Virus record (IMG/VR): IMGVR_UViG_3300021420_000089
Span: 1-35,821 of that record
Direction: 5' to 3' (one strand)
DNA from: a virus
DNA: 35,821 nucleotides
This document shows positions 2,325-17,999 of this stretch, piece by piece. How positions within the stretch are numbered: position 1 is the stretch's first letter; the number at the start of each line of letters is the position of its first letter. A program made the translations under genes and the position numbers. A model generated the notes under the pieces. That model was not told the origin of the DNA. It made no database searches and saw only the letters and a program-made list of their open reading frames with translations.

Positions 2325-2918
2325 ATGGCGAAGAAAAAACTACCGCCGGTAATGACGCGAGCCCAAGCCAAAGCGGCGGGGCTGAAGCGCTATTGGCGGG
2401 GGACGCCATGTCTCAAGGGGCACCGCGCTGAGCGGTTCACCTCCGACGCGCACTGCGTGGTCTGCACGGATCAAAAGTTTTGGGCGTGGTATGACGAGAA
2501 CAAGGCCCATGTTGTGGCTGGCGTGAAGGCGTGGCGCGAGCAAAACCCAAAGAGGCACCGATTGCAACGCTTGCGAGAGCTGCCAGCTAACCGCGAACGG
2601 ATGCGCCAATGGGCGAAAGATAACCCAGAGCGTTACAGTCAAAGCTGTAAAGCGAGGAACCACGCTCGTCGATCGCGTGAGCGCAATGCTCCGGGGAAGT
2701 GGACGGCTGACGATATAGACAAATTATTTGACCAACAAAAGCGGCGATGCGCGGCTTGTAGAGTGAGCATCAAGAAGGGGTACGAGATCGATCACAAACA
2801 ACCTCTCTCTAAGGGTGGAACGAACTACATTTCAAACATTCAGCTTTTGTGCTTCTCTTGCAATCGAAGCAAAGGCAGCAGACCGCACGAAGTCTGGCTC
2901 GCGGAACGGAGTTTGTGA
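2325..2918 (+). CDS. HNH endonuclease, free-standing
   Basis: Codes for 197 residues. The C-terminal HNH/beta-beta-alpha-metal core is clear: CAAC (C142, C145), EIDH (D156, H157), the Asn at 171 in YISNIQ, and CFSCN (C176, C179), so the zinc knuckles and the catalytic His are all present. A second zinc knuckle lies near the N-terminus (C29, H33, then C44 and C47). The middle (60-125) is a basic helical region, probably DNA-binding. It sits between terminase and portal, where HNH genes are common; some assist terminase cutting, others are homing-type selfish genes. The gene looks more AT-rich by eye than its neighbours. Its stop overlaps the portal ATG (TGATG), so it is fitted into the operon. 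Confidence 0.93.
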   Translation: MAKKKLPPVMTRAQAKAAGLKRYWRGTPCLKGHRAERFTSDAHCVVCTDQKFWAWYDENKAHVVAGVKAWREQNPKRHRLQRLRELPANRERMRQWAKDNPERYSQSCKARNHARRSRERNAPGKWTADDIDKLFDQQKRRCAACRVSIKKGYEIDHKQPLSKGGTNYISNIQLLCFSCNRSKGSRPHEVWLAERSL

Positions 2919-5404
2919 TGGCGAAGAAAACAGGTCGTATCGCGATCCCGAAAGGCATCAACAAACGCGATCAACGCCAAGCCGTCCGTGACGAGCAGAA
3001 GGTGAAGCAAGAATTAGCTGCGGCGGGCGCTGGCTTGCCGAGCCAGATTCCTTCCAAGAAAACACAAGACAGCTTCACGAACTTTGCGCTCAAGTTAGGT
3101 ATCGGGACCGACAATGCGCTCTCTTTGAGTTCGTACTCGTTCAATCCAATAACGCGCATCCGTGTGCTGCTGGAGTGGATTCACCGGGGCTCATGGATGG
3201 GCGGCGTGGCGATCGACCTCGTGGCCGACGACATGACGCGGGCGGGCATCGATCTCCAGAGCACGGTGAAGCCTGAGCTGATCGAGAAGATCAAGCAAGC
3301 GGCGGTGCGGTGGCGCATCTGGCCAGCGATCAATGAGACGGTGAAGTGGGCCAGGCTCTACGGCGGATCAATCTGTTTCATCATGATCGACGGGCAAGAT
3401 CCGGCAACGCCGCTACGCATTGAGACGGTGCAGAAGGGGCAGTTCCGAGGGTTGCTGCCGCTCGACCGTTGGATGGTGGACGCGCTGATCGGCACGGGCG
3501 ATCTGGTCACGGAGATGGGGCCTGAGTTCGGCAACCCGAAATTCTATCGCACGATCATCGCGCCAGGCATTCCGTACATCAAGATCCACTACTCGCGGGT
3601 GATCCGGCTGGAGGGAATCCGGCTTCCCTACAACCAGCGCATCATGGAGAATCTGTGGGGCCTCTCGGTGATTGAGCGCTTGTACGACCGCATGGTGGCG
3701 TTCGATTCAGCGAGCATGGGCGTGGCGCAGCTCATGTATAAGGCGCACTACCGCATCCTGAAAGTGGAGGGGTTGCGCGAGATCGCGGCTACCGGCGGCA
3801 CCGCCTATCAGGGCTTGCTCGCGCTCACGGCTCTCATGGCCAAGTTTCAGAGCATAGAGGGTACCACGCTCATTGACACGAAGGATGAGTACGAGGGCAC
3901 GGAAGGCGGCGCGTCAGGCATCGCGGGTGTGGGCGAGGGGCTTGAGGCGATGGCCAATCAGCTCGCTGGTGCGCTTCAGATTCCGATGACGCGGTTATTC
4001 GGACAATCGCCCGGCGGATTGAACTCGACGGGCGAGAGCGATCTGCGCATGTACTACGATGGCATCAAACAACAACAGGAATCGGAACTCAAAGTCGGGG
4101 TGCACAAGGTCTACCGTGTCATGTCCGCGAGCGAAGGGATCAAGCTCGGGGATGACTTCGACTTCGAGTTCCGTTCGTTGTGGCAGATGACGGACCAGCA
4201 GTCGGCTGAGGTGTCTGCGCGCGACACAGAGTCGATCCTGGCTGCAGAGGAGCGAGGCGTCATCAGCAAGCAGGTTGCGCTGGAGGAGATGCGCCAGCGC
4301 GGCCGATCGGCAAATCGCTGGAGCAACATCACGGATAAGGACATCAATAAAGCAGACGACGAACCGGCAGCACCAGCGATGGAAGCGGCGCTCAAGGGAG
4401 AAGGCGTTAAGCCTGAGAGCACGAAGATGCCGGCGGTCAAGCAGGCGGCGAAGCGCCCTAGCCAGGGAGATCGAGCGTTCTTGCCCCCGATGGTTGCGAA
4501 GGCGGTCGAGGAGCCTGAGATCGATTGGGAGCACGACGTGCGGACCCTCGCCAACGCCAGCAAGGCAGGAGGAAAGACCTACATTGATCGACGTGTCGAT
4601 AAAGAAATCAACATCGTGGGAAGACGCCTTGAGACGGCTCAGCCCTTGAACCTGCATGAGCAATACGAGCGGTTCCTCGTTGTCGTGATGGGGATGAGCG
4701 ATGATGAGGCGCACGAGATCGCTACCCAAGCGGAGCGCGAATGGTTCATCGAGAATGGCTTCGGAGAGGAAGGCTGGAAAGCATGGACCCGGTACATCGA
4801 TGGCAAGCTGGCGCACATCGAGCATGAGGGCGTGAGGAATCCGCCGCCGGACCCCTACGTCACGACGCGGACGGCCTTGGGACCGGGACACCACCACTCG
4901 ATCAACAAGCTCAGCGTCACGCGGGACCATGACTACAACCTGCCCATGCTCGATTACTGCGGCCTCCCGGTGATCATTGAGGCGTTCAAGGGTGAGAAGC
5001 GCTGGGCGGACGGACCCGCACAGCCGGCCGACTATGGCCATTTCTGGGGCACCGGGAGCGCTGAGGGCAAGCACGAGGGGATGGACGTCTTCGTGGGGCC
5101 TTACCGGGATATGCTCGATCACGGGCCGCTGCCGGTCTACGTGATCGATCAGTACGACAAGCGCACCGGGGAATTTGACGAGGCAAAATGCTTTATAGGC
5201 TTCCGCAACGAGCAGGAGGCGAAGGACTGCTGGGATGACGCTTATGGCACGTTCCATGTGCGGCGCGGTGGATGCACGACGCTGGACGTGGCCTCATTGG
5301 CAACATGGATGAGAACGGCTAACCTGCGGGAGCCGCTATCGACCACGCGCGGGCCGATCAGCGATCGCAAGGGCAACGGCAATGGGGCACATCCCGCAAC
5401 CTGA
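2918..5404 (+). CDS. DUF1073-type portal protein with C-terminal inorganic-pyrophosphatase-like (InPase) domain
   Basis: Codes for 828 residues, long for a portal. Residues 1 to about 470 match the DUF1073 (Acb1-like N-terminal) portal family: YSFNPITRIRVLLEWIHRGS, a core with KFYRTIIAPGIPYIKIHYSRV-type strands, and the late RLFGQSPGGLNSTGESD segment. About 470-670 is a charged linker. Residues about 674-785 look like the InPase domain of phage polyvalent proteins: YGHFWGT, EGMDVFVGP, VYVIDQYD and FDEAKCFIGF occur in the family's order. Whether the domain still hydrolyses anything cannot be told from sequence. ATG 2918 overlaps the HNH stop by one base and is preferred over an in-frame start at 2849 inside the HNH gene. 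Alternative reading: the tail is only a structural cap on the portal's internal face. Confidence 0.92.
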   Translation: MAKKTGRIAIPKGINKRDQRQAVRDEQKVKQELAAAGAGLPSQIPSKKTQDSFTNFALKLGIGTDNALSLSSYSFNPITRIRVLLEWIHRGSWMGGVAIDLVADDMTRAGIDLQSTVKPELIEKIKQAAVRWRIWPAINETVKWARLYGGSICFIMIDGQDPATPLRIETVQKGQFRGLLPLDRWMVDALIGTGDLVTEMGPEFGNPKFYRTIIAPGIPYIKIHYSRVIRLEGIRLPYNQRIMENLWGLSVIERLYDRMVAFDSASMGVAQLMYKAHYRILKVEGLREIAATGGTAYQGLLALTALMAKFQSIEGTTLIDTKDEYEGTEGGASGIAGVGEGLEAMANQLAGALQIPMTRLFGQSPGGLNSTGESDLRMYYDGIKQQQESELKVGVHKVYRVMSASEGIKLGDDFDFEFRSLWQMTDQQSAEVSARDTESILAAEERGVISKQVALEEMRQRGRSANRWSNITDKDINKADDEPAAPAMEAALKGEGVKPESTKMPAVKQAAKRPSQGDRAFLPPMVAKAVEEPEIDWEHDVRTLANASKAGGKTYIDRRVDKEINIVGRRLETAQPLNLHEQYERFLVVVMGMSDDEAHEIATQAEREWFIENGFGEEGWKAWTRYIDGKLAHIEHEGVRNPPPDPYVTTRTALGPGHHHSINKLSVTRDHDYNLPMLDYCGLPVIIEAFKGEKRWADGPAQPADYGHFWGTGSAEGKHEGMDVFVGPYRDMLDHGPLPVYVIDQYDKRTGEFDEAKCFIGFRNEQEAKDCWDDAYGTFHVRRGGCTTLDVASLATWMRTANLREPLSTTRGPISDRKGNGNGAHPAT

Positions 5405-6589: not shown

Positions 6590-6781
6590 ATGACCATCCA
6601 ACGTGACGGCGGGACGATCCACTTCTGCTGTGACAACTGCGGCGACTCGCTGGACACTGAGGAGTCGGACGAGTTCTTCGGTGAAGCGATTAAGTATGCG
6701 AAACTGAAGGGGTGGCAGTTCTTCAAGGCAAACGGCGAGTGGGAGCACTATTGCGCTGATTGCAAGAGGGCAGCGGCGTGA
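6590..6781 (+). CDS. Small zinc-ribbon protein
   Basis: Codes for 63 residues starting at the base after the previous stop. Two cysteine pairs are spaced as in a zinc ribbon: CCDNCG near residue 13-18 and YCADCK near residue 54-59, separated by an acidic helix (DTEESDEFFGEAIKYAK) and an aromatic strand (GWQFFKANGEWEHY). The fold resembles the many small phage zinc-ribbon proteins that bind partner proteins or nucleic acid. No catalytic motif. It ends in a GTGA overlap with the minor head protein, so it is translated with the head genes. Confidence 0.65.
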   Translation: MTIQRDGGTIHFCCDNCGDSLDTEESDEFFGEAIKYAKLKGWQFFKANGEWEHYCADCKRAAA

Positions 6782-7716
6782 TAGGTGCCGGCGGGATCGT
6801 TAAGGGCGTCGGTAGGTTCTCCCGCCCAAGGCGCGGCCAGCTTCCGTTCCCCACAGCGATCAATCGAGGCATCACCGGGCCTGATCCAGCGCAACCGCTT
6901 CCGTTCCTCACGGAAGACGCGCCGCGCAACTTCTTTGCTGCGCGCAAGGCTGAGGCACAGTATGCGCGGAATCTCAGGTCAGTCGCACGCGAGATCGGGC
7001 GGTTAGTCTCACGGTTCTTCTCGCTGCCGCCGCACGAGGGCGGGGAGTTCCACTCAGAGCACTCGGCAGAGATCGTCAGCGTCGGCCGGCGGGTGCTCAC
7101 TCGCGCGAATGTGAAGGAGCTGGAGGATGCGCTCGCGCGGTATGCGAAGATCCTCGATCCGTGGGCAAGATCGGTCGCGGGTAGCATGATCGCGGACGTG
7201 GCGAGGCGTGACCTGATGGAGTGGCGACGACGGTCCCGCACCATGAGCCGGGAGCTGGCGCGCGAGATCGAGCACACGCCGATCGGTGAGCGGGTACGCG
7301 AGCTGATGGACGAGCAAGTCACGCTCATTACGAGCTTACCGCTGGTCGCGGCGCAGCGGGTGCATGAGCAAGTCATGGGCGCGCAGCTAACGTCTGCCCG
7401 GCCAGCGGAGGTTGCCACGGCGATCATGCGGACCGGCCACGTTACGGAGAGCCGGGCCAAGCTGATCGCACGCACGGAGGTCGCCAGGGCGTCCAGTGTG
7501 CTTGTCCAAGCGCGGGCCGAGTTCGTGGGGTCGACGGGGTATATCTGGCGCACCGTTGGCGACTCCGATGTGCGTCTCTTGCACCGGAAGCTGGAGGGGC
7601 AATTCATCCCATGGGACAAACCGCCGATTGCGGCAGAGCCGAACATCCGCGCGCACGCTGGACAAATTTTCAACTGCCGGTGTAGACCAGAGCCAGTTAT
7701 TCCTGACGTGTTTTGA
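6778..7716 (+). CDS. Minor head protein, Mu F-like / SPP1 gp7-like head morphogenesis protein
   Basis: Codes for 312 residues from GTG 6778 (GTGA overlap). The long helical middle (about 60-190) leads to the diagnostic C-terminal domain: SRAKLIARTEVARASS (about 233-248), GYIWRTVGDSDVRLLHRKLEG (about 260-280) and the closing HAGQIFNCRCRPEPV with paired Cys. These are the hallmarks of the phage Mu gpF / SPP1 gp7 family, which binds the portal and takes part in procapsid assembly and DNA entry. The usual genomic position is next to the portal; here small genes lie between them. The start is supported by overlap with the zinc-ribbon gene's stop. After it comes the accessory block rather than the protease. 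Confidence 0.9.
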   Translation: MIGAGGIVKGVGRFSRPRRGQLPFPTAINRGITGPDPAQPLPFLTEDAPRNFFAARKAEAQYARNLRSVAREIGRLVSRFFSLPPHEGGEFHSEHSAEIVSVGRRVLTRANVKELEDALARYAKILDPWARSVAGSMIADVARRDLMEWRRRSRTMSRELAREIEHTPIGERVRELMDEQVTLITSLPLVAAQRVHEQVMGAQLTSARPAEVATAIMRTGHVTESRAKLIARTEVARASSVLVQARAEFVGSTGYIWRTVGDSDVRLLHRKLEGQFIPWDKPPIAAEPNIRAHAGQIFNCRCRPEPVIPDVF

Positions 7717-7724: not shown

Positions 7725-8471
7725 ATGGGTAGTCGTTGGTGGAAACCCGGAGAGATCGAGGCGTTGAAGCGGCTGTGGCCCGATGGGTCGCGGCAAGAGC
7801 TGGACGAGGCGCTGCCTAACCGCAAGCAACACATGCGCGCCATGATGGCTGTGCGGCTAGGTCTCAAGCGCAAGCGGCATCATCGGCGCGTGCACTTGCT
7901 CTTCGGTAAGCTGCGAGAGATCCGCGAGCAGAAAAAGATAAAAAGAGAAACTGTAGCACGTAGAGCTGGTTTCGGCCTCAATACTTTATGCGATTGGGAA
8001 ACCGGAAAGCATATGCCAGGGTGCCTTGGGCTGTTCTCATGGATTGAAGCGTTAGGGCTCGAACTGAAAATTGAACAGAGACGCACGGAGAACGACAAGC
8101 GCTTGCACATGAACCGTGCGGCGTTGATCGACCGGATCGAAGAACTGGAAGAATTGCTCGGCGTCTTCATTCGAGTGCCTGATGCCATTGGCCTCACTCA
8201 GCACGAGCGAATGGTGCTCGGCATGATCGTGAAGCGCAAAGGCGTGGTGAGCCGCGAAGCCATTTTCATCGGAGTTTACGGCGCGCGCCCTGAGATCGAC
8301 CAGCCAGACATGAAAATAGTGGACGTGGTTCTTTGTAAGATCCGCAAAGGATTGGAACCATACGGTATCAAGATCGAGACGGCGTGGGGCATCGGCTACT
8401 ACATGACGGAAGAAATGCGGGCAAAGACAGAGAGGCTGCTCGCGGAATCGTCCATGCAGAAGGCGGCCTAA
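7725..8471 (+). CDS. Three-domain DNA-binding regulator: SANT/GcrA-like HTH, XRE HTH and OmpR-type winged helix
   Basis: Codes for 248 residues from ATG 7725 behind a GAGGGA ribosome site. Residues 1-50 resemble the GcrA/SANT-type unit (W-x-x-G-E-I-E-A-L-K-R-L-W-P-D-G-S then a second helix and VRLGLKRK). Residues 60-117 are an XRE-type helix-turn-helix (KLREIREQKKIKRETVARR, LNTLCDWETGKHMPG). Residues 118-150 form a coiled coil (RIEELEELLG). Residues 156-227 match the OmpR/PhoB C-terminal winged helix (LTQHERMVLGMIV, GVVSREAIFIGVYG, IETAWGIGYYM). No receiver domain is present. It opens the accessory block in the head module and is followed by a 12-base palindrome, so autoregulation or control of the next genes is plausible. 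Function is inferred from domains only. Confidence 0.8.
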   Translation: MGSRWWKPGEIEALKRLWPDGSRQELDEALPNRKQHMRAMMAVRLGLKRKRHHRRVHLLFGKLREIREQKKIKRETVARRAGFGLNTLCDWETGKHMPGCLGLFSWIEALGLELKIEQRRTENDKRLHMNRAALIDRIEELEELLGVFIRVPDAIGLTQHERMVLGMIVKRKGVVSREAIFIGVYGARPEIDQPDMKIVDVVLCKIRKGLEPYGIKIETAWGIGYYMTEEMRAKTERLLAESSMQKAA

Positions 8472-8518: not shown

Positions 8519-8540
8519 CCTGATGATCGGAGAGCGACAA

Positions 8541-9050
8541 ATGCGGAAGTGGTCCCTTAAAGCGATTACTGCAATTTGTTTCCTGGGGCTCGCTCTGGGC
8601 ATCGGTAGCGCTCCGTTCCTGTGGGCGCAGTCTCAGGTTCCAGGCATTGGGCCGGGGCCGTACAACATCGACCTTGGCGCAATCGTCACGAACATTGCGC
8701 AGGTTCCTGGCACCTACACGTCCGCTCAGCAAACGAGCCCGGACAAGAGCGGTGTCATCTGCACCTTCAACCGGACGGCCTTTTCCGGCTCTCCGTCGAA
8801 TACGTTCGGCATTCAGATCTACGACACGGCGTCGAACACCTATCAGACGGTTGTGTCTTCAGCGGCGATCACCGCAACGCCTGCCGGTCCGATCTCGATC
8901 CTCACCTATCCGGGCGTCACGCTGATCACCACGCCCACGGGCATGGTCGCGCAGGCGATTCCGATCACCCGGTACTGGCGCGTGACGGAGACGATCACGG
9001 GTGCTGGCACTCAGGATACGTCAACGATCGGTTGTGTTTTATTGAAGTGA
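8541..9050 (+). CDS. Secreted protein A with Sec signal peptide, paralogue of the 10317 gene product
   Basis: Codes for 169 residues. ATG 8541 has GGAG nine bases upstream; in-frame starts at 8493 and 8523 would spoil the signal peptide. Residues 1-30 are a Sec signal: a basic start (MRKWSLK), hydrophobic core (AICFLGLALGIGSAPFL) and a cleavage-like WAQ. The mature part is beta-rich and polar. It shares a domain with the C-terminal half of the protein at 10317: C-x-x-N-x-T, SGSPS, a DT-x-S-x-x-Y-x-x-VV-S stretch, a Pro-Gly loop, R-x-WRV, GAGT, and an ending GC-x-L-L. Two Cys (VICTF, IGCVL) are matched by Cys in the paralogue and could form a disulfide after export. Function unknown; a cell-surface, periplasmic or virion-surface role is possible. 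Confidence 0.7.
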   Translation: MRKWSLKAITAICFLGLALGIGSAPFLWAQSQVPGIGPGPYNIDLGAIVTNIAQVPGTYTSAQQTSPDKSGVICTFNRTAFSGSPSNTFGIQIYDTASNTYQTVVSSAAITATPAGPISILTYPGVTLITTPTGMVAQAIPITRYWRVTETITGAGTQDTSTIGCVLLK

Positions 9051-9054
9051 GTCG

Positions 9055-9144
9055 ATGCAGCTAGGCATCCTCACCTTCCTCATCACCGTCGCCTACACGC
9101 CCGGCCTGGTCGATCAAACGACCGCCGGGCGTTGGACGTTATAG
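9055..9144 (+). pseudogene. N-terminal fragment of the O-antigen-ligase-like gene, cut by a frameshift
   Basis: ATG 9055 opens a 29-codon frame ending in TAG 9142-9144. It encodes a hydrophobic start (QLGILTFLITVAYTPGL) followed by TTAGRWTL. A single -1 shift after the TTA at 9139-9141 would join it to IAGSVLLLWRVRL in the frame of the large ORF, giving a continuous membrane segment as expected for the N-terminus of a ligase-like protein. The large ORF by itself has only a TTG near its start. The simplest reading is that one base is missing or one has been added here, by mutation or by sequencing error. Confidence 0.55.
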
Positions 9145-10148
9145 CGGGCTCTGTGCTGCTGCTGTGGCGCGTGCGGCTCAATCCGGGTCCAGGTCACTGG
9201 CTTGCCACCATCTTTGTGGCCTATGCGGCGGTTAGTCTAACGTGGTCGGCGTCGCCCTACGACACGATGGGCGAGCTGCTGCACCTCCTTTTTTTGGGCA
9301 TGGTGTTCCTGCTCGCGGCTGAGGAGACGAGCCTTGCCCCCTGCATCATCGGGCTTGCGATCGGCGTCTCGGTGTCTGTGCCCTTCTCGATTGCGCAGAT
9401 GCTCGGCTATTCGCCCGTGTACGTGGCGATGCCCACTTTGCCTCTTGCGGTGGGGCTATTCGTCAACAAGGCGCATCTTGCCGAGGTGGGTGTGCTGGCA
9501 CTGATCGGGGTGCTTGGCACTATTGTGGCACGGCGCGCGTGGTGGTGGGCACTCATTCCGGGGCCGCTGCTCGCCACGATCCTGCCCGAGAGCCGCGAGA
9601 CGATCCTGGTGCTCGGTATTGTCGCGGCGGCATGGGCTTGGCACATCGCGCCGCGAGCGCGCGTATTGTGGGTGCCCGGATGCGCGGTGGCAACGGCGGC
9701 GATCCTTTGCGTTGCGTTCATGCAGCCAGGCGGGACAGGAACCGTCTTTGATCGCTTTGAATACTGGCGGATCACAGCCTCACATTTGACGTGGTTCGGT
9801 TATGGATTTGGGACGTTCGCTGCGCTGATCCCCGAATTGGAGTCTGTTCACAATGAGCCGTTGCAGTTCGTCTTTGAGTTGGGAGTGGGGGCAGTTCTCT
9901 TGGCCCCTCTCGTGGTCTATGCATTATGGGCGCGTGCCGGCGTTGAGAGGCTGCTACTCGTCGCCATCATTGCTCAAGGACTCGTTTGGTATCCGCTTCA
10001 CGTCCCGACTACGGCATTTCTATTTGCGGTATTGGCGGGTTTTCTTGTTGGCGTTCACAATCGGAATCGTCGGCTCGAATCTGGTCGCGGAGCGGGTCGT
10101 CTACACGACGCTACATACGGATGGCCTGTCGTTCCAACAGCGCTTTAA
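9132..10148 (+). CDS. O-antigen ligase / Wzy-like polytopic membrane protein (N-terminus in another frame)
   Basis: This 338-codon frame encodes about ten hydrophobic segments and carries Wzy_C/WaaL-type features: PESRETILVLGI near residue 155, then a periplasmic-loop-like region YWRITASHLTWFGYGFGTF and HNEPLQFVFELGVGA near 220-255. O-antigen ligases and polymerases join polysaccharide units on the periplasmic face of the inner membrane. Only a weak TTG at 9132 is available as start; the natural N-terminus appears to be the fragment at 9055-9144. The last 25 or so residues (after HNRNRR) look like out-of-frame sequence overlapping the next small gene. Phage-borne ligase-like proteins are known in serotype conversion; here the target is inferred. 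A host-derived origin is possible. Confidence 0.7.
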   Translation: MDVIAGSVLLLWRVRLNPGPGHWLATIFVAYAAVSLTWSASPYDTMGELLHLLFLGMVFLLAAEETSLAPCIIGLAIGVSVSVPFSIAQMLGYSPVYVAMPTLPLAVGLFVNKAHLAEVGVLALIGVLGTIVARRAWWWALIPGPLLATILPESRETILVLGIVAAAWAWHIAPRARVLWVPGCAVATAAILCVAFMQPGGTGTVFDRFEYWRITASHLTWFGYGFGTFAALIPELESVHNEPLQFVFELGVGAVLLAPLVVYALWARAGVERLLLVAIIAQGLVWYPLHVPTTAFLFAVLAGFLVGVHNRNRRLESGRGAGRLHDATYGWPVVPTAL

Positions 10149-10257
10149 CGGACTGATGTTTGCAGCAAAAATATATCCGTTTGATAGGAACATCAGGTGG
10201 TCAGCTTTTTCATTCGCCTTTGCCTATGAGCGCGAGCGCTACAAGGCGACCCAATAA
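10024..10257 (+). CDS. Small membrane-anchored protein overlapping the ligase-like gene
   Basis: A frame ending at TAA 10255-10257 encodes a convincing small protein in its second half: one membrane segment (FLLAFTIGIVGSNLVAERV) followed by FNGLMFAAKIYPFD, IRWSAFSFAFAYERERYK. The tail resembles the single-helix-repeat (TPR-like) partners found after some ligase-like genes (A-x-x-x-x-P-F-D-x-x-x-R-x-x-x-A). No ATG or GTG fits; TTG 10024, 10045 or 10048 are the possible starts, so the 5' end is uncertain. The gene overlaps the ligase-like ORF by over 100 bases. Composition and the sharp change in protein character at about 10045 favour a real gene over a random frame. Confidence 0.45.
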   Translation: MRYWRVFLLAFTIGIVGSNLVAERVVYTTLHTDGLSFQQRFNGLMFAAKIYPFDRNIRWSAFSFAFAYERERYKATQ

Positions 10258-10282
10258 TTCATTGACGGCTGATGCGATCTGG

Positions 10283-10303
10283 TATCCTCGTCGCTCCGAT
10301 TCG
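10283..10303 (+). promoter_or_regulatory. Upstream motif copy B shared by the two secreted-protein genes
   Basis: TATCCTC-G-TCGC-TC-CGATTCGT lies about 14 bases before the ATG of the second secreted-protein gene and matches the motif at 8500-8518 with a two-base insert. A TTGACG sits at 10262-10267, but its 15-base gap to TATCCT is shorter than the normal 17, so promoter activity is uncertain. Confidence 0.3.
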
Positions 10304-10316
10304 TTTGAGGATGCGG

Positions 10317-11126
10317 ATGCGGTCATTTTTTAATCGGCTGTGCTCACTCCAAACAGTCTTGGCGCTGTATCTGATGCTCACGCCCGCAGCGGCATGGGCG
10401 CAGGCATGGCCGCAGAACTTTCCATCGCAGCCTCAGCTCAGTCTGTCATTCACACAGGTAGCGCAGACTCAGCTCGCGGTCACCACGACCACGGGCAATG
10501 TGGCGTTTCCGTCGAGTGCCGGGATCAACAGCAATTACGCCTACATCTGCAACACGGGCACAGCGACAGCCTGGGTGAACTATGGCGCGACGAGTGCTGT
10601 GACGGCAGTCGCCAATTCGGGCCAGGCTGTTGCGCCAAATCAGTGCAACTATCCGCAGGGCTTTCCATTCCCGGCTTTTGTCGCGGCGATCACGGCCGCA
10701 GGCACGGCCAATCTGGTCATCATTGTTGGACTGGTCACGCAGCCGCAGCTTGGCAACTATGACGTTGGCCCGCTGATCACCGCTGCTGCGCAGGCCACAG
10801 GTACGGTCAATAGCCAAGATCAGGTCAACTTCACTTCTGCGGGGGTTAACTGTTTTCTGAACGTCACAGCGACAAGCGGGTCTCCTTCCTACAATTTTGC
10901 GATCCAAGGAAAGGATACAACGTCCGGCGTTTACTACGACGTGGTTCGGTCCAGCGCGAATGCCACGTCCGGCAACATCACCACGACAACCTTTCCCGGT
11001 CAGCCGATCAGCATCGCGGCCAATCTGGCGCGCGAGAGCTTCCCGCTCCCGCGCGTGTGGCGCGTGCAGTTAGTCGTAGGTGCAGGAACGGTGACGGGAA
11101 CCGCTGGGTGCTCGGTGCTGCTGTGA
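10317..11126 (+). CDS. Secreted protein B with Sec signal peptide, two-domain paralogue of secreted protein A
   Basis: Codes for 269 residues. ATG 10317 is chosen because GAGG lies six bases upstream; in-frame ATGs at 10311 and 10272 lack that spacing. The signal peptide is basic then hydrophobic (LQTVLALYLMLTPAAAWA) with an AWA cleavage site. The first half (about 30-145) is a beta-rich domain with NYAYICNTGTATAWVNYG, typical of sandwich folds that also appear in phage tail appendages. The second half (about 150-269) repeats the domain of protein A: NCFLNVTATSGSPSYNFAIQ, a Y-Y-D-V-V-R-S-S run, LPRVWRV and the GCSVLL end. Its stop overlaps the GTG of the DUF2213 gene, tying it to the head operon. 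Function unknown. Confidence 0.7.
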   Translation: MRSFFNRLCSLQTVLALYLMLTPAAAWAQAWPQNFPSQPQLSLSFTQVAQTQLAVTTTTGNVAFPSSAGINSNYAYICNTGTATAWVNYGATSAVTAVANSGQAVAPNQCNYPQGFPFPAFVAAITAAGTANLVIIVGLVTQPQLGNYDVGPLITAAAQATGTVNSQDQVNFTSAGVNCFLNVTATSGSPSYNFAIQGKDTTSGVYYDVVRSSANATSGNITTTTFPGQPISIAANLARESFPLPRVWRVQLVVGAGTVTGTAGCSVLL

Positions 11127-12529
11127 GAGGCGCTATTCAGGATCGGGATTCGACAGGGGTCTACACGGCGTTCGAGATCGGCGACAACATGGCCGAGACG
11201 CCGGAAGGATTTCTGCTTTGCAAGAACGTGCCCATCGCGCGCACGGGAAAGATGATCTATGGGCCTGGCGAGACGCCAGTGAGCACGGGCGACGCCGGCT
11301 ACGTGGTCATCGATCGGGACGCTGAAGACCTGTTCGATGAAGAGACGATCGCCAGCTATTGGGGCAAGCCGGTCTGCGATGATCACCCGACAGAGGACGT
11401 GACGCCGGACAACTGGCGTCTTCTCTCACGCGGAGTCACGCTCAATCCGCGCCGTGGCACGGGGTCTCAGGCAGACCTCCTATTAGCTGATCTGCTCATA
11501 ACGGATCGTGCTACGATCCGGGTGATTCGTGACAAGGAAAAGCGCGAAGTCTCACCGGGCTACGATGCGGACTACAAAGAAATTTCACCGGGTCACGGAC
11601 GGCAGCGAAGGATCAGAGCAAACCATGTCGCTCTTGTTGATCGCGGCCGATGCGGCACTCGCTGCTCCATTGCTGATAAGGTCGGCCCTCGCGGGTCGCG
11701 GATCGAAACCATAGCCGACAGGAAGACGGAGACACCAATGGTGCGGACGACTGACAAGGCAACCGGATGGAAAGCCGTTCGGGACCGTATTCTGGGTGCT
11801 TGGGACGGCAAGGACAAAACCGCGCTGGACGCCGCGCTGAAGGACGCCAAGAAACTCGTCAAGGACGAGCACGAGGAAGAGGGTGAGGGCGAGCACCAGC
11901 ACATCCACATCCACACCGGCGAGGCCAAGGATGCTGACCCGATGGAGGAGATCAAGTCCACGATGGACTCGCTCGCGACCGACGTGAAGAAGATCGCCGA
12001 CCGTCTTGAAAAGGTCGAAGACAAGATCAAGGGCAAGGACGGGGAAGGGTCGCTTGAGATCACGATCCCCGAGGGAGCCGAGCATGGCGCTGGAACGGAT
12101 CGCCGGGGCGCGAAGGACTCTGCCGCGTTCGAGGAGCCGTTTGGCGAGACGATCTCACTCGCCGAGATCCTTGTCCCAGGAATCCGCGTGCCGACGTTTG
12201 ACCGGGCGAGCGATCCCAAGAAGACGCTGGACGCCATGTGCAAACTACGGCGCGATGCGCTGGAACTCGGTTACGCGGACAAAGACACGCGTCCGGTGAT
12301 TGATCAGGTCATCGGCGGCAAGGCGCTCGATCTCAAGAGCATGACGTGCGACGCGGTGAAGCCGATCTTCCTGGCTGCGGCCAACGTCAAGCGCGCTCTC
12401 AACAGCGCGAAGTCGACGGACATGACCGGGCACACCAAGCACGGCCAGCCCTCGTTGCCGCATACGATCTCGGACATGAACCGCGCGGCGGACGAGTATT
12501 GGAGCAAGCAGCCACGGGTTGGCAGCTAA
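11123..12529 (+). CDS. DUF2213-family prohead protease/scaffold-like protein
   Basis: Codes for 468 residues from GTG 11123 in a GTGA overlap; the frame is open upstream inside the previous gene. The N-terminal 200 residues match DUF2213: GFLLCKNVPIARTGKMIYGPGE, a CDDHPTEDVTPDNW segment with a conserved His, VSPGYDADYKEISPG, and NHVALVDRGRCG. The His, the Ser in VSPGY and the NHVALV end resemble the prohead protease layout, so a protease role is plausible. The C-terminal half is charged and helical (about 230-330, with an EHEEEGEGEHQHIHIH run and a K/E coiled coil TDVKKIADRLEKVEDKIKG), as in scaffold domains. It precedes the decoration and capsid genes, the normal place for protease/scaffold genes. 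Confidence 0.85.
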   Translation: MRGAIQDRDSTGVYTAFEIGDNMAETPEGFLLCKNVPIARTGKMIYGPGETPVSTGDAGYVVIDRDAEDLFDEETIASYWGKPVCDDHPTEDVTPDNWRLLSRGVTLNPRRGTGSQADLLLADLLITDRATIRVIRDKEKREVSPGYDADYKEISPGHGRQRRIRANHVALVDRGRCGTRCSIADKVGPRGSRIETIADRKTETPMVRTTDKATGWKAVRDRILGAWDGKDKTALDAALKDAKKLVKDEHEEEGEGEHQHIHIHTGEAKDADPMEEIKSTMDSLATDVKKIADRLEKVEDKIKGKDGEGSLEITIPEGAEHGAGTDRRGAKDSAAFEEPFGETISLAEILVPGIRVPTFDRASDPKKTLDAMCKLRRDALELGYADKDTRPVIDQVIGGKALDLKSMTCDAVKPIFLAAANVKRALNSAKSTDMTGHTKHGQPSLPHTISDMNRAADEYWSKQPRVGS

Positions 12530-12565
12530 GCGCAACGGCAAACCTAGAAGAGCGGAGCGGTCAAT

Positions 12566-13174
12566 ATGAACTTCCATCGGGTTATCGGCGCTCTTGCGAT
12601 GCCGTCGATTCTTCGGCCTCGCGAGCGGTTCGTGGGCCGGCAGCGCACGCGGGATGTGGCGTTCCAGTTCCGCATGGCGACAGGGTTCGCGGGTGAAATC
12701 GCTCGGCACGGCCCCTTCAGCGTCGTCTCGCGCATGGCTGACCCGACCAACCCGCCGCTCAACTACGGCGTTCCGGTCATCCTGATGACCAGCGGCGCGG
12801 TGCGGCAGTTCATCTCGTCTGACACGGGTGTCACGGACCCCTTCGGGATCATCGTGCGGCCCTATCCGATGAGCCCGCAGACCGCGACCGGCTATGGCGC
12901 AGCGGGCATCGGTGCCACCACGCCACCGACCAACTTCCCGGTCGACATCCTCGTGTCCGGCTTCGTGACCGTGGCGGTCAATGGCACGATTACCAATATC
13001 GGTGCACCGACAAGCGTGTTCGTGTGGTGCGCTGCTTCAACTGGCGCGCACATTGCGGGCGGCTTCGAGGCGGCCTCATCCGGCGGCAACACCGCGACGC
13101 TCAATTGGGACAAGACGTTCTGGAACTCGCCGGCAGGACCGGACGGGATCGCGGAACTCGGGTTCAACGTGTAA
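12566..13174 (+). CDS. Capsid decoration / structural cement protein (gp24-like)
   Basis: Codes for 202 residues from ATG 12566. The body is beta-rich with many Gly, Val and Thr: AGEIARHGPFSVVSR, GVPVILMTSGAVRQF, PFGIIVRPYP, DILVSGFVTVAVNG and an ending FWNSPAGPDGIAELGF. That pattern (a short head, a G-x-P-V strand, a -R-P-Y-P- turn, an I-L-x-x-G-x-V-x-V hairpin) is typical of phage structural cement proteins encoded directly before the major capsid protein, which bind the outside of the shell and stabilise it. Residues 20-30 (ERFVGRQRTRD) almost repeat residues 20-30 of the capsid protein. A 26-base gap with AGGAGA precedes the capsid gene. Confidence 0.8.
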   Translation: MNFHRVIGALAMPSILRPRERFVGRQRTRDVAFQFRMATGFAGEIARHGPFSVVSRMADPTNPPLNYGVPVILMTSGAVRQFISSDTGVTDPFGIIVRPYPMSPQTATGYGAAGIGATTPPTNFPVDILVSGFVTVAVNGTITNIGAPTSVFVWCAASTGAHIAGGFEAASSGGNTATLNWDKTFWNSPAGPDGIAELGFNV

Positions 13175-13200
13175 TCGGGACCGGACCTTTCAGGAGAAGA

Positions 13201-14448
13201 ATGATGCGACTAATGACAGACGATCTCGGTCCCGGCCTGGCTCCTCCGCGCCTGAAAGAGCGGTTCGTGGGCCGCATGTCGACCCGCGATCACATGACGT
13301 TCGACCAGATCGTCCAGGCAGGACGCACGCGGGACAATCTGGGCGAGGCGCTTGGTCATCGGTTCGAGGCAGCGCCCTACCGGGTCGCCAATCCGAAAAG
13401 CAACTGGCAACCGCGCTGGGGTGTTCGGGATGGCGAATGGGTGTCGCAGCGGGTCTATGACTCGACGGGCGCGTTCATGCTGGGTGAGCTGGAACGGCTC
13501 GATCAGACGGCGCATTTGCCCCTGGCGGCCGTGTTCTGGTCGCGTGACATTCAGCTCCGAGAGGACGTCTCAAGCGCGGACGAGATCACGTCCTATACGG
13601 TGCAGACCTACGGCTCGCCGGGCGGCCTTGGCGTCAGCCAGTCGGTTGGCAACTCCAAGTCATGGTCCGGCAAGGACGTGACGCAGATCCAGGGCATCTC
13701 GCTGGACATTGGCAAGATCGCCCACGTGCTGCGCATCTGGGATCTGGAGATCAAGTACACGATCCCAGAACTGGAAAGCGCGGTGAAGCTCGGTCGTCCG
13801 ATCGATGCACAGAAGTACGATGGCCTTCTGCTCAAGCATCAGATGGACATCGACGAAATGGTGTACTACGGGGACACCGGGTTCACCGAATACGGCATGA
13901 TCAATTCGGAGTACCGCAGCGGCGCGGATCAGGTCACCAACTACGCGAACGCTCCGAACGGTGCCGCCGGTTCGCCATTGTGGGCACAGAAGACGCCCAA
14001 CGAGATCCTGGCTGACGTCAACACCATCCTCAATTCGACCTGGAAGGGCGCAGCCTGGGCGGTCATTCCGAATCGGCTGCTGCTGCCGCCGACGCAGTTC
14101 TCTTACATCTCGACGCAGCTCATCTCGATCGCCGGCTCGCAGTCGATCCTGACCTACGTCCGCAACAACAACATCTTCTCGTCCAGCGGGCGTGGGCAGA
14201 TCGACATCTTCCCCTGCAAGTGGTGCATCGGAACAGGTCACGGCGGAACGGTCACCACGGAGAACGGCAACAACCGGATGATGGCGTACACGCGGGACAT
14301 GAAGTACATCCGGTTCCCGATGACGCCGCTCCAGAAGACGCCGCTCCAGTACGATGGCATCTGGCAGAAGACCACCTACTGGTGTCGGCTTGGCGTCGTG
14401 GAAATCGTGTACCCGGAGACGGCGGGGTATCTGGACCAGATCGGCTGA
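13201..14448 (+). CDS. Major capsid protein, DUF2184 family
   Basis: Codes for 415 residues from ATG 13201 behind a strong AGGAGAAG; the frame is open upstream in the decoration gene but the ribosome site fixes the start. The body carries DUF2184 marks: LPLAAVFWSRDIQLREDVSS (about 105-125), LDIGKIAHVLRIWDLEIKYT (about 170-190), MDIDEMVYYGDTGFTEYGMIN (about 216-236), LAD-V-N-T-I-L plus WAVIPNRLLLPPTQF, and IFPCKWCIGTG. This family forms the HK97-fold shell of several contractile-tailed phages. The N-terminal motif ERFVGR at 20-25 is shared with the decoration protein. Length is close to the family's usual. The ribosome site, central position and neighbours all fit a highly expressed shell protein. 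Confidence 0.92.
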   Translation: MMRLMTDDLGPGLAPPRLKERFVGRMSTRDHMTFDQIVQAGRTRDNLGEALGHRFEAAPYRVANPKSNWQPRWGVRDGEWVSQRVYDSTGAFMLGELERLDQTAHLPLAAVFWSRDIQLREDVSSADEITSYTVQTYGSPGGLGVSQSVGNSKSWSGKDVTQIQGISLDIGKIAHVLRIWDLEIKYTIPELESAVKLGRPIDAQKYDGLLLKHQMDIDEMVYYGDTGFTEYGMINSEYRSGADQVTNYANAPNGAAGSPLWAQKTPNEILADVNTILNSTWKGAAWAVIPNRLLLPPTQFSYISTQLISIAGSQSILTYVRNNNIFSSSGRGQIDIFPCKWCIGTGHGGTVTTENGNNRMMAYTRDMKYIRFPMTPLQKTPLQYDGIWQKTTYWCRLGVVEIVYPETAGYLDQIG

Positions 14449-14464
14449 TCTTGAAATCAGCTTA

Positions 14465-14472
14465 TAGGAGGT
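14465..14472 (+). promoter_or_regulatory. Strong ribosome binding site deciding a GTG start
   Basis: TAGGAGGT lies four bases before GTG 14477. It is close to a perfect anti-Shine-Dalgarno match and is the reason for choosing the GTG as start of the coiled-coil protein. The 28-base gap after the capsid gene contains nothing else. Confidence 0.7.
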
Positions 14473-14476
14473 TACC

Positions 14477-15148
14477 GTGGTTGAGACCGCAGACACCGTT
14501 CGCATCTGGTCACCGAGCGCGTTCAACCTAACGCGCGACGACGGCATTCTGATCCCCATCCGCGTCGGCTGGAATCTGGTTCCGGCCGAGTACGCGGATC
14601 ACTCGTATCTCAAGGCGCACGGCGCGGTGCGCGAAGAGGACATGACGGACGCGCAGAGGATCAAGTTTGTGCGCGCTGAAGAGGATGCTGCGTTGGCGTC
14701 CGACCGAGCGGCGGTGGATGCCGAGATCGCCAACCGACGTTCCTTGGAGGACACGGAGTTGGCGCGGCAGTTGGAGGACGAGCAGCGCTTGAAGTCGGAG
14801 GCGCTTGCTGATGGCCGCGAGCCGACGACGGAATGGCTAACCGCGCGGCGTGCTGATGAGGACAAGCGTGCGACCGAGGCTCGCGCCAAGCTGGACGCCA
14901 AGGTCAAGGCGGACGCTGGGGTTACAGAGAGGCGCAAGGCTGAAGATGCCGCTACGGCTGAGCGCCGCAAGAGCGAAGACGAGGTGGTAAAAAGGCTCGA
15001 TGCCAGGCGTCAACGCGATAAAGCGGCAGCGGACAAAACGGCGGCGGCGGATGCCGCTAGGGCTTCGGCAGCGAAGGCTAACGGCGACAAGGTTGAGGGC
15101 AAAGCGGGCAAGGCCGACAAGAAGTTTTCGGGGACACTCGAATCCTGA
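14477..15148 (+). CDS. Virion-associated protein with N-terminal HSYxKxHG domain and long charged coiled coil
   Basis: Codes for 223 residues from GTG 14477. Residues about 18-51 contain a compact unit (DDGILIPIRVGWNLVPAEYADHSYLKAHG) that is also found in the protein at 15209. From about 58 to the end the chain is a long helical, extremely charged segment rich in Ala, Arg, Lys, Glu and Asp (ERRKAEDAATAERRKSED), as in a coiled coil. The last 30 residues are Lys- and Ala-rich. It follows the capsid protein and precedes a strong hairpin. A role in capsid assembly or as an internal or connector protein is likely from position; I cannot assign a known family. Confidence 0.6.
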   Translation: MVETADTVRIWSPSAFNLTRDDGILIPIRVGWNLVPAEYADHSYLKAHGAVREEDMTDAQRIKFVRAEEDAALASDRAAVDAEIANRRSLEDTELARQLEDEQRLKSEALADGREPTTEWLTARRADEDKRATEARAKLDAKVKADAGVTERRKAEDAATAERRKSEDEVVKRLDARRQRDKAAADKTAAADAARASAAKANGDKVEGKAGKADKKFSGTLES

Positions 15149-15158
15149 TGTGCTAGTC

Positions 15159-15191
15159 AGGGGGGCAGAATAAGTTTACTGCGGCCCCCCT
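15159..15191 (+). other. G6/C6 hairpin between capsid-region genes
   Basis: A run of six G preceded by A (15159-15165) can pair with six C followed by T (15185-15191), seven base pairs, with an inner CAG/CTG pair of triplets and a small bulge. No T-run follows, so it does not look like a standard Rho-independent terminator. It ends 17 bases before the next ATG and could act as an RNA-processing or stability element, or weaken translation. Confidence 0.5.
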
Positions 15192-15208
15192 CATGTTAGG
15201 AGCGATCA

Positions 15209-15544
15209 ATGGCGAAAGAGCCCCACAAAGCAACTCAAGCAGAACTCGAAGAGGCGCGGGAGCACGCCGACAAGAAGGCGCTGGAGGAACTGCAAAGCGA
15301 CAAGCAAAAGGCGATCCTGCAACAGAAGATCGCCAACTCGATGCTCGATGCGGGCTCGATCGCGCACGAGCCAGGGGACGACAAGGTGCTGTGCTCGGTG
15401 CCGAAGACGTTCAATTTCACCATGAACGATCATCGGCGCGTGATCGTGCCGGCGGGTATCTGCCCGATCCCGAAGGCGCTGGTGGAGCACAGCTATATGA
15501 AGAACCACGGCGTCAAGCCGCTTGAGACGGCCAAGGCAGGCTGA
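15209..15544 (+). CDS. Small virion-associated protein, domain shared with the 14477 product
   Basis: Codes for 111 residues from ATG 15209 after AGGAG. Residues 10-48 form a charged helix ([19 protein letters not shown]). The C-terminal 40 residues are [20 protein letters not shown] followed by [10 protein letters not shown], matching the N-terminal unit of the product at 14477 (VPAEYADHSYLKAHG). So the same small domain is used with a helix on opposite sides in the two proteins. The ordinary position after the capsid gene suggests a head or connector part; no known family recognised. Confidence 0.6.
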
Positions 15545-15966
15545 TGCCGCTCAAGGAAGGCTCGTCATCCGAGACGATCAGCGAGAACGTCAAAGCCGAG
15601 ATGGAGCACGGCAAGCCTCAGAAGCAAGCCGTGGCGATCGCCATGAACCAAGCGGGCAAGAGCAACCGTGACAACATTCCAGGGTCGGCATATTGTGATG
15701 GCGTGACGTCGCCACCCTTCGGACCATCGGAGTCTCACGTGCACAAGGTTCCAGACAACATGCCCAATGCGGGCGCAGCTCCATCAGGTGCGAATGCGCC
15801 GCTGGGAGCTGATTGCGGCCCTCCTTCACGTGACATGGCGCGCGATGCCTCTGCGCCCGAGCGCGGGCCGGGAAACTCTACGGCCCAGTCGGTGGCCGAG
15901 ACACAGGCCCAAAACCGCAAGCTCTGGGAGAACACGGACCCTGCGTTCGTCACCGGGCAGAAGTGA
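15544..15966 (+). CDS. Small phage protein with DUF6496-like N-terminus
   Basis: Codes for 140 residues from ATG 15544 (TGATG overlap with the previous stop). The first 40 residues match a widespread phage motif: [20 protein letters not shown] then [17 protein letters not shown], seen in DUF6496-like proteins. The rest is low-complexity and disordered-looking, rich in Pro, Gly, Ala and Ser. Function is unknown; the conserved head is often found next to structural genes. Confidence in the gene is good, in any function low. Confidence 0.65.
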
Positions 15967-15972
15967 TGAGCG

Positions 15973-16512
15973 ATGGCCGTCGTCCAGAATGCGGTGACGT
16001 TCGGGAATGTGAACGAGGCGCAGTTTCGGGCTGACTTCCCCGAGTTCGCTAACCCTGTCACCTATCCGCCGACTACGATCAACTGGCATCTGAACCTCGC
16101 CAGCCTCACGTTCACGTCCGTGTGGGATCAGACGGTTGGGGCTGGTGGACTGTCAGTGCAGGACTCGGCGGTAGAGCTGTTCATCGGACACTTCCTGACG
16201 CTTGAAAAGATGGCGATGGACCAAGCGCTCCGCGGCGGTCCGGTCGGGATTCAGAAGGGACCGATAAGCTCCAGCGGTGCTGGCCCAATCAATCAGAGCT
16301 ACGCGGTGAGTGAGGTGGTTGAGCCCAACGCTGGCCATTGGAACTACACCACGTTCGGCATCCGGCTGAAGCGGCTGATCAGCTACTACGGAGCGGGACC
16401 ATTTCAGGCGAATATCGGGGCGAGCCCGACGCCATTCTCCATCGCCGCGCTTGGGGCCTTTGCGGGGCCGTGGCCGTGGCCTATACCGGGTGGGTTCGGT
16501 TTCACGAGTTAG
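15973..16512 (+). CDS. Head-tail connector / head completion protein, DUF4054 family
   Basis: Codes for 179 residues from ATG 15973. The N-terminal EAQFRADFPEFANP followed by a helical part with LASLTFTSVWDQ and the later AVELFIGHFLTLEKMAM match DUF4054, a family of head-completion (adaptor) proteins that bind the portal after packaging. The middle (GPISSSGAGPINQSYAV) is a glycine-serine hinge followed by YTTFGIRLKRLI, as in the family. The C-terminal tail is Pro-, Trp- and Gly-rich (GPWPWPIPGG). It is in the expected place between capsid and tail genes. Confidence 0.8.
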   Translation: MAVVQNAVTFGNVNEAQFRADFPEFANPVTYPPTTINWHLNLASLTFTSVWDQTVGAGGLSVQDSAVELFIGHFLTLEKMAMDQALRGGPVGIQKGPISSSGAGPINQSYAVSEVVEPNAGHWNYTTFGIRLKRLISYYGAGPFQANIGASPTPFSIAALGAFAGPWPWPIPGGFGFTS

Positions 16513-16523
16513 GAGGCGTGGCG

Positions 16524-16676
16524 ATGGCCACCGAAGTGTCAATCGTACTAAAGGTCAGATGGTGGATTCATCCGTTTATTTGGCTCTGTAGAGCCATTCT
16601 TTTGTTAGGCATTTGTCCATCTCGTAGCTGGATAGAGCGCGTTATTTCGCGCGGCATTGTGCCGATTGTCAAATGA
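16524..16676 (+). CDS. Very small membrane protein (50 aa)
   Basis: ATG 16524 lies eight bases after TAGGAGG (16510-16516), a strong ribosome site, and the frame ends at TGA 16674-16676. The 50 residues contain one hydrophobic segment (WWIHPFIWLCRAILLLGIC, about 13-31) flanked by basic residues. The stop overlaps the ATG of the next small gene. No known family. Together with the next gene it forms a pair of membrane miniproteins in the middle of the connector genes. Confidence 0.55.
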   Translation: MATEVSIVLKVRWWIHPFIWLCRAILLLGICPSRSWIERVISRGIVPIVK

Positions 16677-16849
16677 CTCCGCGCAAAGCATGGTTCCGAT
16701 ACAAGCAGGCCCGTCAGCGCGACTTCATGATGCTCGCGGCGGTGACTCTGGTGCTCGCGGCGGCTTTGTTTGCTAACCTGCTCTCGGGCTGGGCGGCGTG
16801 GCGTCACATCGGGCACATGGAACGCCACCTCGTCTTGCCGGTGGACTGA
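16673..16849 (+). CDS. Very small membrane protein (58 aa)
   Basis: ATG 16673 lies in an ATGA overlap with the previous gene, and its TGA (16847-16849) overlaps the next ATG. The 58 residues start with a basic helix (TPRKAWFRYKQARQRDF), then a hydrophobic segment (MLAAVTLVLAAALFANLL, about 20-37) and a short polar tail. One membrane pass, N-in by the positive-inside rule. No family recognised. Translation coupling on both sides is the main reason to believe in it. Confidence 0.5.
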   Translation: MTPRKAWFRYKQARQRDFMMLAAVTLVLAAALFANLLSGWAAWRHIGHMERHLVLPVD

Positions 16850-17073
16850 TGGCCATCGATCGAGCGCTTGATGTCCGCCTGCTCGGCAATCAGGTCGAAG
16901 AGCTGATCGAGTGCCTGGAGTACATCGAGTGCCAGGTGCCAGAAGAGTGCCGCGAGCGGGTGCGCAAGAACGTGCTACAGCTTGAGGGGGCGGTGGCGAG
17001 CGCGATCAAGCGGGATCAGGTGCTCAATGCGGCGCTACAGTTGCCGGCGGGGATGCGGTTCGGTGCGCGATGA
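16849..17073 (+). CDS. Small helical hypothetical protein
   Basis: Codes for 74 residues from ATG 16849, one base into the previous stop; an in-frame start at 16798 would overlap that gene. The sequence is mainly helical, with Glu- and Arg-rich stretches (VEELIECLEYIEC and EECRERVRKNVLQLEGAV) and three cysteines, so a small coiled-coil or helical bundle is likely. Its stop overlaps the ATG of the gp10-like gene (ATGA). Function unknown. Confidence 0.6.
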   Translation: MAIDRALDVRLLGNQVEELIECLEYIECQVPEECRERVRKNVLQLEGAVASAIKRDQVLNAALQLPAGMRFGAR

Positions 17074-17564
17074 AGACCGGGGTCACCAAGACCAAGAGCA
17101 TGGCATCGGTGCTGGACAAGCGGATCCGCGAGCTGGCGGACAGCGAGGTGCTTGTGGGCGTGCCACGGGAGGGGTCGCAGCGGCAGGGGGCGATCAGCAA
17201 CGCGGCGCTGGCCTACATACACGACAATGGTGCGCCTGAAGCGGGCATCCCACCGCGCCCGTTCATGAAGCCTGGGATCAAGGATGCGTCGGAGAAGATC
17301 AAGGCGCACATGAAGCAGGCTGGGCAGGCGGCCCTCCACGGGCGCGCTGAGGCTGTTGAGCGGGCATTCCATGCGGTTGGGCTCACGGCCGTGTCATCCA
17401 TCCAGGCGGTGATCCGCGCCAGAATACCGCCGCTGCTTGCGGAATCGACGCTTGCGGCGCGGCGACGGCGCGGGCGGACCGGAGATGTGCCGCTGATCGA
17501 CACTGGCGCGTTGATCGCAGCCCTAACCTATGTGATTCGGCGCAAGAGGCGCGAGGCACGCTGA
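17070..17564 (+). CDS. HK97 gp10-like tail/neck completion protein
   Basis: Codes for 164 residues from ATG 17070 in an ATGA overlap. The marks of the HK97 gp10 / Mu gpG-like family are visible: a strand VLVGVP near residue 27-32, then ALAYIHDNGAPEAGIPPRPFMKPGI (about 46-70), a long central helix (EKIKAHMKQAGQAALHGR), and an ending DTGALIAALTYVIRRK. These proteins complete the neck or tail end. It sits between the connector genes and the next unknown neck gene. Length is within the family's usual range. Confidence 0.8.
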   Translation: MKTGVTKTKSMASVLDKRIRELADSEVLVGVPREGSQRQGAISNAALAYIHDNGAPEAGIPPRPFMKPGIKDASEKIKAHMKQAGQAALHGRAEAVERAFHAVGLTAVSSIQAVIRARIPPLLAESTLAARRRRGRTGDVPLIDTGALIAALTYVIRRKRREAR

Positions 17565-17998
17565 TGGCGCAGCTAGACGTCACGGACGTTCTTTTGGACC
17601 CCGACGTTGCGGGCGACAGCTTTATTGTCGTGCGCCGGCAGGAAGTCGTGGACAACAATGGCTTCTCGCAACTGACCATAACGAAGATCCCGGCGTTCGG
17701 GCATGTGAGCCCAACGGGGGAGAACTCGCTTGTCCGTCTTGACGCCTATCAGCAAAAGGCCAGGACGATCCAGGTCATCACGAACTTTGCGTTGCGTGGT
17801 CCGAGCGAGGATGCGTTCGGGCGCAAGTGGCAACCTGACATCATCCAATGGCAACCGCCTTGGGCATCGGAAGCCTTGCATTTCATCGTCGTGACGATCA
17901 ATGCTTTCACGAACTACGGCGCGGGGTTTGTCAGCGCCGAGTGCACGACGATCGATTTCGTGGACCAGTATCCGGTCAATCGGCCCGTGGCGGTGTGA
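17564..17998 (+). CDS. Probable head-tail joining / tail completion protein
   Basis: Codes for 144 residues from ATG 17564 (TGATG overlap). It is a beta-rich soluble protein: SFIVVRRQEVVDNNG, FSQLTITKIPAFGHVSPTG, then RTIQVITNFALRG and HFIVVTINAFTNYGAG, ending near a CTTIDFVDQYP strand. The pattern of an OB-like or jelly-roll barrel with a conserved I-x-G-x-V-x-P centre is common in phage head-closure and tail-completion genes encoded right after gp10-like genes. No family name can be given from sequence alone. Confidence 0.55.
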   Translation: MAQLDVTDVLLDPDVAGDSFIVVRRQEVVDNNGFSQLTITKIPAFGHVSPTGENSLVRLDAYQQKARTIQVITNFALRGPSEDAFGRKWQPDIIQWQPPWASEALHFIVVTINAFTNYGAGFVSAECTTIDFVDQYPVNRPVAV

Positions 17999-17999
17999 G

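Follow-up and report, generated by a model that had tools for sequence, protein, structure and literature searches.

A phage protein that probably fuses GcrA-like, XRE and zipper-borne CtrA-type DNA-binding units

In a 35,821-nucleotide stretch of viral DNA (IMG/VR record IMGVR_UViG_3300021420_000089, positions 1 to 35,821; henceforth the window), we examined a gene whose 248-residue product, P0001, we read as a phage transcription regulator fusing three regulators that alphaproteobacterial phages normally encode separately, a reading to which we assign a probability of roughly 55%. The fused parts look like a GcrA-like helix-turn-helix (HTH), a small protein of the XRE type and a protein that carries a leucine zipper along with a CtrA-type winged helix. 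That one chain holds three DNA-binding-type units had been proposed in an initial annotation and is borne out here, although the N-terminal unit is only weakly shown. The same annotation had seen no receiver domain, and indeed no receiver family in Pfam or NCBIfam matched P0001, whose residues 1-116 are taken by other units. The gene, its parts and its upstream neighbor are as follows:

6760 to 7716, plus strand: MuF head morphogenesis gene (Phage_Mu_F, E 1.3e-11), probably on the same transcript as P0001
7725 to 8471, plus strand: whole gene for P0001, 248 residues, open from ATG to stop, GAGGG lying 5 bases upstream of the ATG
7725 to 7880, plus strand: N-terminal three-helix unit, weakly GcrA-like, residues 1-52 (hhalign, predicted helices)
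7893 to 8072, plus strand: XRE helix-turn-helix with low GC3, residues 57-116 (Pfam HTH_3, XRE fold)
8082 to 8159, plus strand: leucine zipper, residues 120-145 or thereabouts (heptad register)
8187 to 8402, plus strand: OmpR-type (CtrA-type) winged helix, residues 155-226 (Pfam, NCBIfam, fold, tree), with its recognition helix at about residues 196-210
8409 to 8465, plus strand: C-terminal helix, residues 229-247, present in many stand-alone relatives (model, alignment A4)

Judged by sequence comparison, a stand-alone phage protein made of a zipper and a CtrA-type winged helix recurs in fused form as residues 117-248 of P0001. The winged helix matches Pfam Trans_reg_C at residues 155-226 (E 1.7e-8; 34.8 bits, cut-off 26.2), and its best NCBIfam match is CtrA over residues 155-229, at 41.2 bits and under the whole-protein cut-off of 350. 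Among solved OmpR-type domains, the model of this part has ArlR (6is4) as its first match, with an rmsd of 1.6 and a Foldseek E of 1.5e-3, none of the 493 Foldseek matches falling under 1e-3. The CtrA gene is the best match of P0001 in five of seven whole genomes, one of them just 44% identical to reference CtrA. The winged helix is common to host CtrA and P0001, as is the greater part of the recognition helix, but CtrA has a phosphorylated receiver, whereas in P0001 the zipper accompanies two further heads. Where the recognition helix ends, 31 of 32 relatives keep Lys209, which in P0001 is replaced by Gly.

A search with P0001 returned receiver-less CtrA-type domains in phages of Rhodobacter, Roseobacter and Paracoccus (31 records, all with query coverage below 80%), and an alignment seeded by three genes from genomes G005 and G006 led to 67 IMG/VR loci whose frames are mostly short, with a coiled coil and then a winged helix. 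The closer of these stand-alone relatives align to residues 117-248 of P0001; L060, among the closest, is 42.5% identical over residues 116-242. Among 397 Hyphomicrobiales genomes, 19 or more carry the family, with no fewer than 22 full-length matches between them, and its zipper and winged-helix proteins match PHROG 731 and 31800. A receiver-less OmpR-type helix, which the initial annotation had thought unusual, is therefore standard within a phage family of considerable size. P0001 fits this family in that its zipper register and winged helix fall into one alignment and it groups with the family in a tree of 41 rows, beside L060 and L061 at 82/88 and with host CtrA elsewhere, bootstrap being unsettled. 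The A5 family profile matches P0001 at E 1.3e-46, P0001 being itself a row of A5. The stand-alone proteins, L060 and L061 the closest, share with P0001 the zipper and winged helix, and in many cases the C-terminal helix as well, but are without an XRE or GcrA-like unit and usually lie behind a DUF6551-like gene, whereas P0001 lies in a head operon. Such a gene is directly upstream in only 32 of the 67 loci, too few to serve as a strict mark of the family (with Pfam, whose cut-off here is 26.8 bits, the two that were tried reach 23.6 and 20.1), and P0001 has MuF there instead; gemA is present in seven of the 67. Single phages can carry the CtrA-type winged-helix gene in tandem (L077:2619-3315 and L070:815-1683).

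The coiled coil of the initial annotation was confirmed as a leucine zipper by its register across 32 aligned sequences. In P0001 the a positions are residues 124, 131, 138 and 145 and the d positions residues 120, 127, 134 and 141. This register is the best of seven, with 79% hydrophobic residues at a and d positions versus 11% elsewhere. Hydrophobic residues (L, I, V, M or F) occupy position 127 in 97% of the 32 sequences, positions 134 and 141 in all of them, position 138 in 94% and position 145 in 100%. Dimeric zippers carry Asn at an a position, and position 131 is Asn in 18 of the 32 sequences and Arg in P0001. A free zipper protein made from the internal start M129 was considered and set aside, no good ribosome site being seen there.

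The XRE unit is matched by Pfam HTH_3 at residues 63-99 (23.7 bits, cut-off 23.0), with HTH_19 and HTH_31 scoring below their own cut-offs. Folded with AlphaFold2 on an alignment containing 20 XRE sequences, it is predicted to adopt the XRE fold, pLDDT exceeding 90 from residue 61 onward. XRE structures match the model at Z 11-12 overall (1y7y: Z 11.2, rmsd 1.6, 64 residues), restriction-controller and HipB-type structures being among them; the VIA rows of this comparison span residues 52-118 and hardly cover residues 1-50. The GC3 of residues 57-119 is 0.49, versus 0.75 and 0.73 in the flanking parts, and a value as low was found in only 41 of 8244 stretches from 36 other gene frames of the window, all within two genes. 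This aberrant GC3 suggests a separate origin for the XRE part. The closest XRE found in genomes of the class (L208, 40% over 52 residues) is unfused to either other unit, as is the same gene in phage contig L217. In alphaproteobacterial phages, the XRE gene or the DUF6551-like/CtrA-type pair is immediately preceded by a DUF2312 gene (L217:1785-2722, L216:2222-2836 and L074:1825-2966); the L216 record itself gives DUF2312, and we take the L217 and L074 genes to be DUF2312, GapR-like, as well.

The N-terminal unit weakly resembles the N-terminus of GcrA. Compared by hhalign with 11 GcrA N-termini, it aligned with 30% identity over 46 columns (P 81%, E 1.2e-5 for that one comparison) and a score of 28.6, against maxima of 15.3 for 60 shuffles, 13.9 for 59 unrelated segments and 14.8 for four other HTH sets. 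GcrA was chosen for this comparison since the initial annotation had named it, and other SANT-type families were left out. Alone against Pfam, the unit matched nothing up to E 10, a GcrA HMMER profile did not match it, and a PDB sequence search returned no match of note. A whole-family PF07750 match, which includes the GcrA C-terminal part, is absent, and the XRE unit comes next instead. Relative to host and phage GcrA (for example phiCbK gp222, PMC3556154), P0001 has weakly similar N-terminal helices, but is under all GcrA family cut-offs and does not have the GcrA C-terminal domain. In a first AlphaFold2 model, residues 33-80 formed one long helix because its alignment had no XRE sequences, and for that region the model was rejected in favor of a second; the mixed alignment A7 and the GcrA rows of A6 were both misaligned and dropped before folding. 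In the second model, helices span residues 10-17, 23-29 and 33 onward at a pLDDT of about 75. Structure prediction for each part, which the initial annotation had proposed as a check, thus yielded the expected folds for the XRE unit and the winged helix, and for the N-terminal unit three helices at moderate confidence.

The units of P0001 are known or have relatives; the combination itself was not found elsewhere. The homologues sharing its domain order that the initial annotation proposed to seek did not turn up in IMG/VR, queried with the whole of P0001 and with its N-terminal half (scans with single proteins that recover close relatives only), in INPHARED or PLSDB, in 397 Hyphomicrobiales genomes (five with weak XRE-type or chance matches) or in 385 genomes of the class, where weak matches occurred in eight and the clear ones were XRE proteins. 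A comparison that took in 48 of 72 related-phage loci, and had no positive control, gave no counterpart of P0001. A match of L055 over residues 11-104 was rejected because it lay in no sensible gene frame.

Fusions of receiver-less OmpR-type helices to a second HTH exist beyond P0001. In L070, directly behind the stand-alone module gene, a second regulator (1180-1695) has, like P0001, an XRE unit and then a CtrA-type winged helix in one protein, but unlike P0001 it has no zipper and no GcrA-like unit; its XRE part is found by hhalign (P 93%, E 3.3e-7), and both of its Pfam matches are under cut-off. Rhodobacter phage RcSalem gp58 and the regulator of Paracoccus phage vB_PmaS-R3 also join a receiver-less CtrA-type winged helix to a second N-terminal domain, which is DUF6456 in these proteins, whereas P0001 has the GcrA-like and XRE units there. 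DUF6456 is joined to a CtrA-type winged helix in the phage regulators L003:2168-2773 and L006:2156-2956. According to PMC9638019, homologues of GafA, the gene-transfer-agent activator, are annotated under this domain name. A second receiver-less design, in which an N-terminal HTH-like stretch (MNHPLRGTFVGNSIVRLADEG...) precedes the CtrA-type winged helix, was seen in several Hyphomicrobiales genomes (L196-L203, L205 and L206) and in phage contigs L096, L099, L103, L104 and L106. In L096 a gcrA gene follows the gene of this design within 40 bases.

Separate genes for the other two units do occur near the stand-alone module. In fetched stretches of 6.4 kb or less, a GcrA N-terminus was present in 8 and an XRE frame in 23 of 105 module loci, as against 0 and 1 of 69 capsid-anchored control loci and 2 and 6 of 40 MuF-anchored ones; since the controls are late regions, part of this excess is expected. 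A GcrA-type frame adjoins the module on the same strand in L096, L105, L182, L186 and L195. Of the loci put to Pfam, L096, L105, L184 and L186 have GcrA above the cut-off, and L195 has it under the cut-off, with other HTH families scoring higher.

The window has the surroundings of a tailed phage, with terminase, portal, MuF, DUF2213, capsid and DUF3383 genes; in the portal frame (2849-5404), residues 695-821 form a C-terminal inorganic-pyrophosphatase-like domain (PF18823, 64.5 bits, cut-off 26.8). The ATG of P0001 comes 8 bases after the MuF stop. In related loci where both were found, the gap between MuF and DUF2213 ranges from none to about 3.1 kb and carries unrelated cargo, which marks this interval as an insertion site. 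The initial annotation had suggested a late-gene or moron regulator, and a moron-like position is upheld, the gene lying in a variable insertion site and being probably co-transcribed with head genes. Because it stands 8 bases behind a head gene in the head operon, P0001 is probably made late, together with the head proteins, and its position among late genes argues against a role in first switching these genes on. A promoter and terminator scan around the gene gave nothing above chance. The rest of the insertion (window 8538-11126) holds two secreted-looking genes and a hydrophobic, probably membrane protein (9132-10148). None of the three matched a PHROG, and in Pfam the first two had no match up to E 0.01 and the third chance-level matches only.

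A sister contig, L221, is 99.99% identical to window positions 9376-22445, begins after the P0001 gene, also contains the last bases of the window (46 of 46 compared) and then runs on. The 27 kb beyond the window encode RecT, a PDDEXK protein, MT-A70 and an outer-membrane barrel; the MT-A70 type DNA methyltransferase of the sister contig is at L290:18670-19290 (PF05063, 91.9 bits). GANTC sites, to which this enzyme might have a link, are the ones read by GcrA. No second CtrA- or GcrA-type gene was found in these 27 kb, an apparent GcrA match being an out-of-frame chance match. The CtrA-type site TTAA-N7-TTAA, exact or with one mismatch, was absent from the window and the 27 kb beyond it (about 63 kb), where 1.55 one-mismatch sites were expected in the window alone. 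The 67 module loci hold 2 exact sites versus 0.8 expected and 42 one-mismatch sites versus 27.7 expected, excesses too weak to use. The lack of sites in about 63 kb, together with the change at residue 209, makes host targets or a shifted specificity likelier.

P0001 might instead be confined to promoters of its own phage, where it could, for instance, repress early or lysogeny genes at a late stage or else activate transcription, with no host CtrA or GcrA targets, which we consider rather unlikely. Its stand-alone relatives do lie in phage gene clusters beside the DUF6551-like gene or near gemA, and in Mu the middle-gene activator is next to gemA; yet P0001 itself is in the head operon, its phage has no CtrA-type site over the roughly 63 kb searched, and no regulator region was identified there. 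The location between the head genes MuF and DUF2213 would also suit a protein that coats DNA or travels with the virion, its heads holding phage DNA during packaging or entering the cell with it and serving no regulatory role. We find this highly improbable, since every identified unit belongs to a class of sequence-specific regulators, relatives fill this variable insertion site with unrelated cargo, and the 48 related-phage records have no counterpart.

The remaining alternative concerns the gene rather than its targets: a foreign XRE fragment may have been dropped into another regulator gene in a recent, perhaps non-functional fusion, or the join may be an assembly error. The drop in GC3 over residues 57-119 agrees with this, as do a 41-mer of the stretch with no exact match in IMG/VR (the window's own record maybe excluded) and the start of the sister contig past the P0001 gene. 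However, neither joint interrupts the frame, the residues that define the fold of each unit are retained, and L070 also carries an XRE-to-winged-helix fusion, so that we hold the fragment or assembly explanation to be improbable. Against the three-regulator fusion itself we count the GcrA-like unit missed by HMMER and Pfam, the lack of CtrA-type sites, Gly209 and the want of a homologue with the same order.

On the three-regulator fusion, P0001 is best read as a regulator that dimerises through its zipper, works independently of phosphorylation and recognises DNA in a CtrA-like manner. The zipper would take the receiver's role as dimeriser and hold two chains together, and with the receiver so replaced DNA binding would not wait for phosphorylation. 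Besides its CtrA-like head, each chain would present one of XRE type and probably one that is GcrA-like; a dimer could thus bring up to six DNA-reading heads, which would favour a long composite site. P0001 may then repress or override host promoters of the CtrA/GcrA type, or reshape the phage's own transcription late in infection. In a bolder form, which we regard as unlikely, GcrA-like and CtrA-like master cell-cycle heads, with a phage XRE between them, would be welded onto a zipper dimer that ignores the phosphorelay and would hold promoters of the CtrA/GcrA circuit in one state during virion assembly.

Earlier papers describe CtrA acting on phage promoters (PMC9437464), phage homologues of GcrA (PMC3556154), a phage regulator of the XRE type with targets in common with host XREs (PMC10688885) and a phage, Jorvik, that requires host CtrA (PMC10589892). 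A literature search for zipper-CtrA proteins, with coverage short of the whole literature, returned no paper describing them. The units of P0001 are similar to regulatory switches that drive the cell cycle in the bacteria it probably infects. A common phage protein keeps the DNA-reading head of CtrA and has a leucine zipper for the receiver, sometimes with GcrA-type or XRE genes nearby. This zipper-CtrA family offers a direct test of whether phages bypass the host cell-cycle phosphorelay, and P0001 would be the case with all three regulators in one protein.
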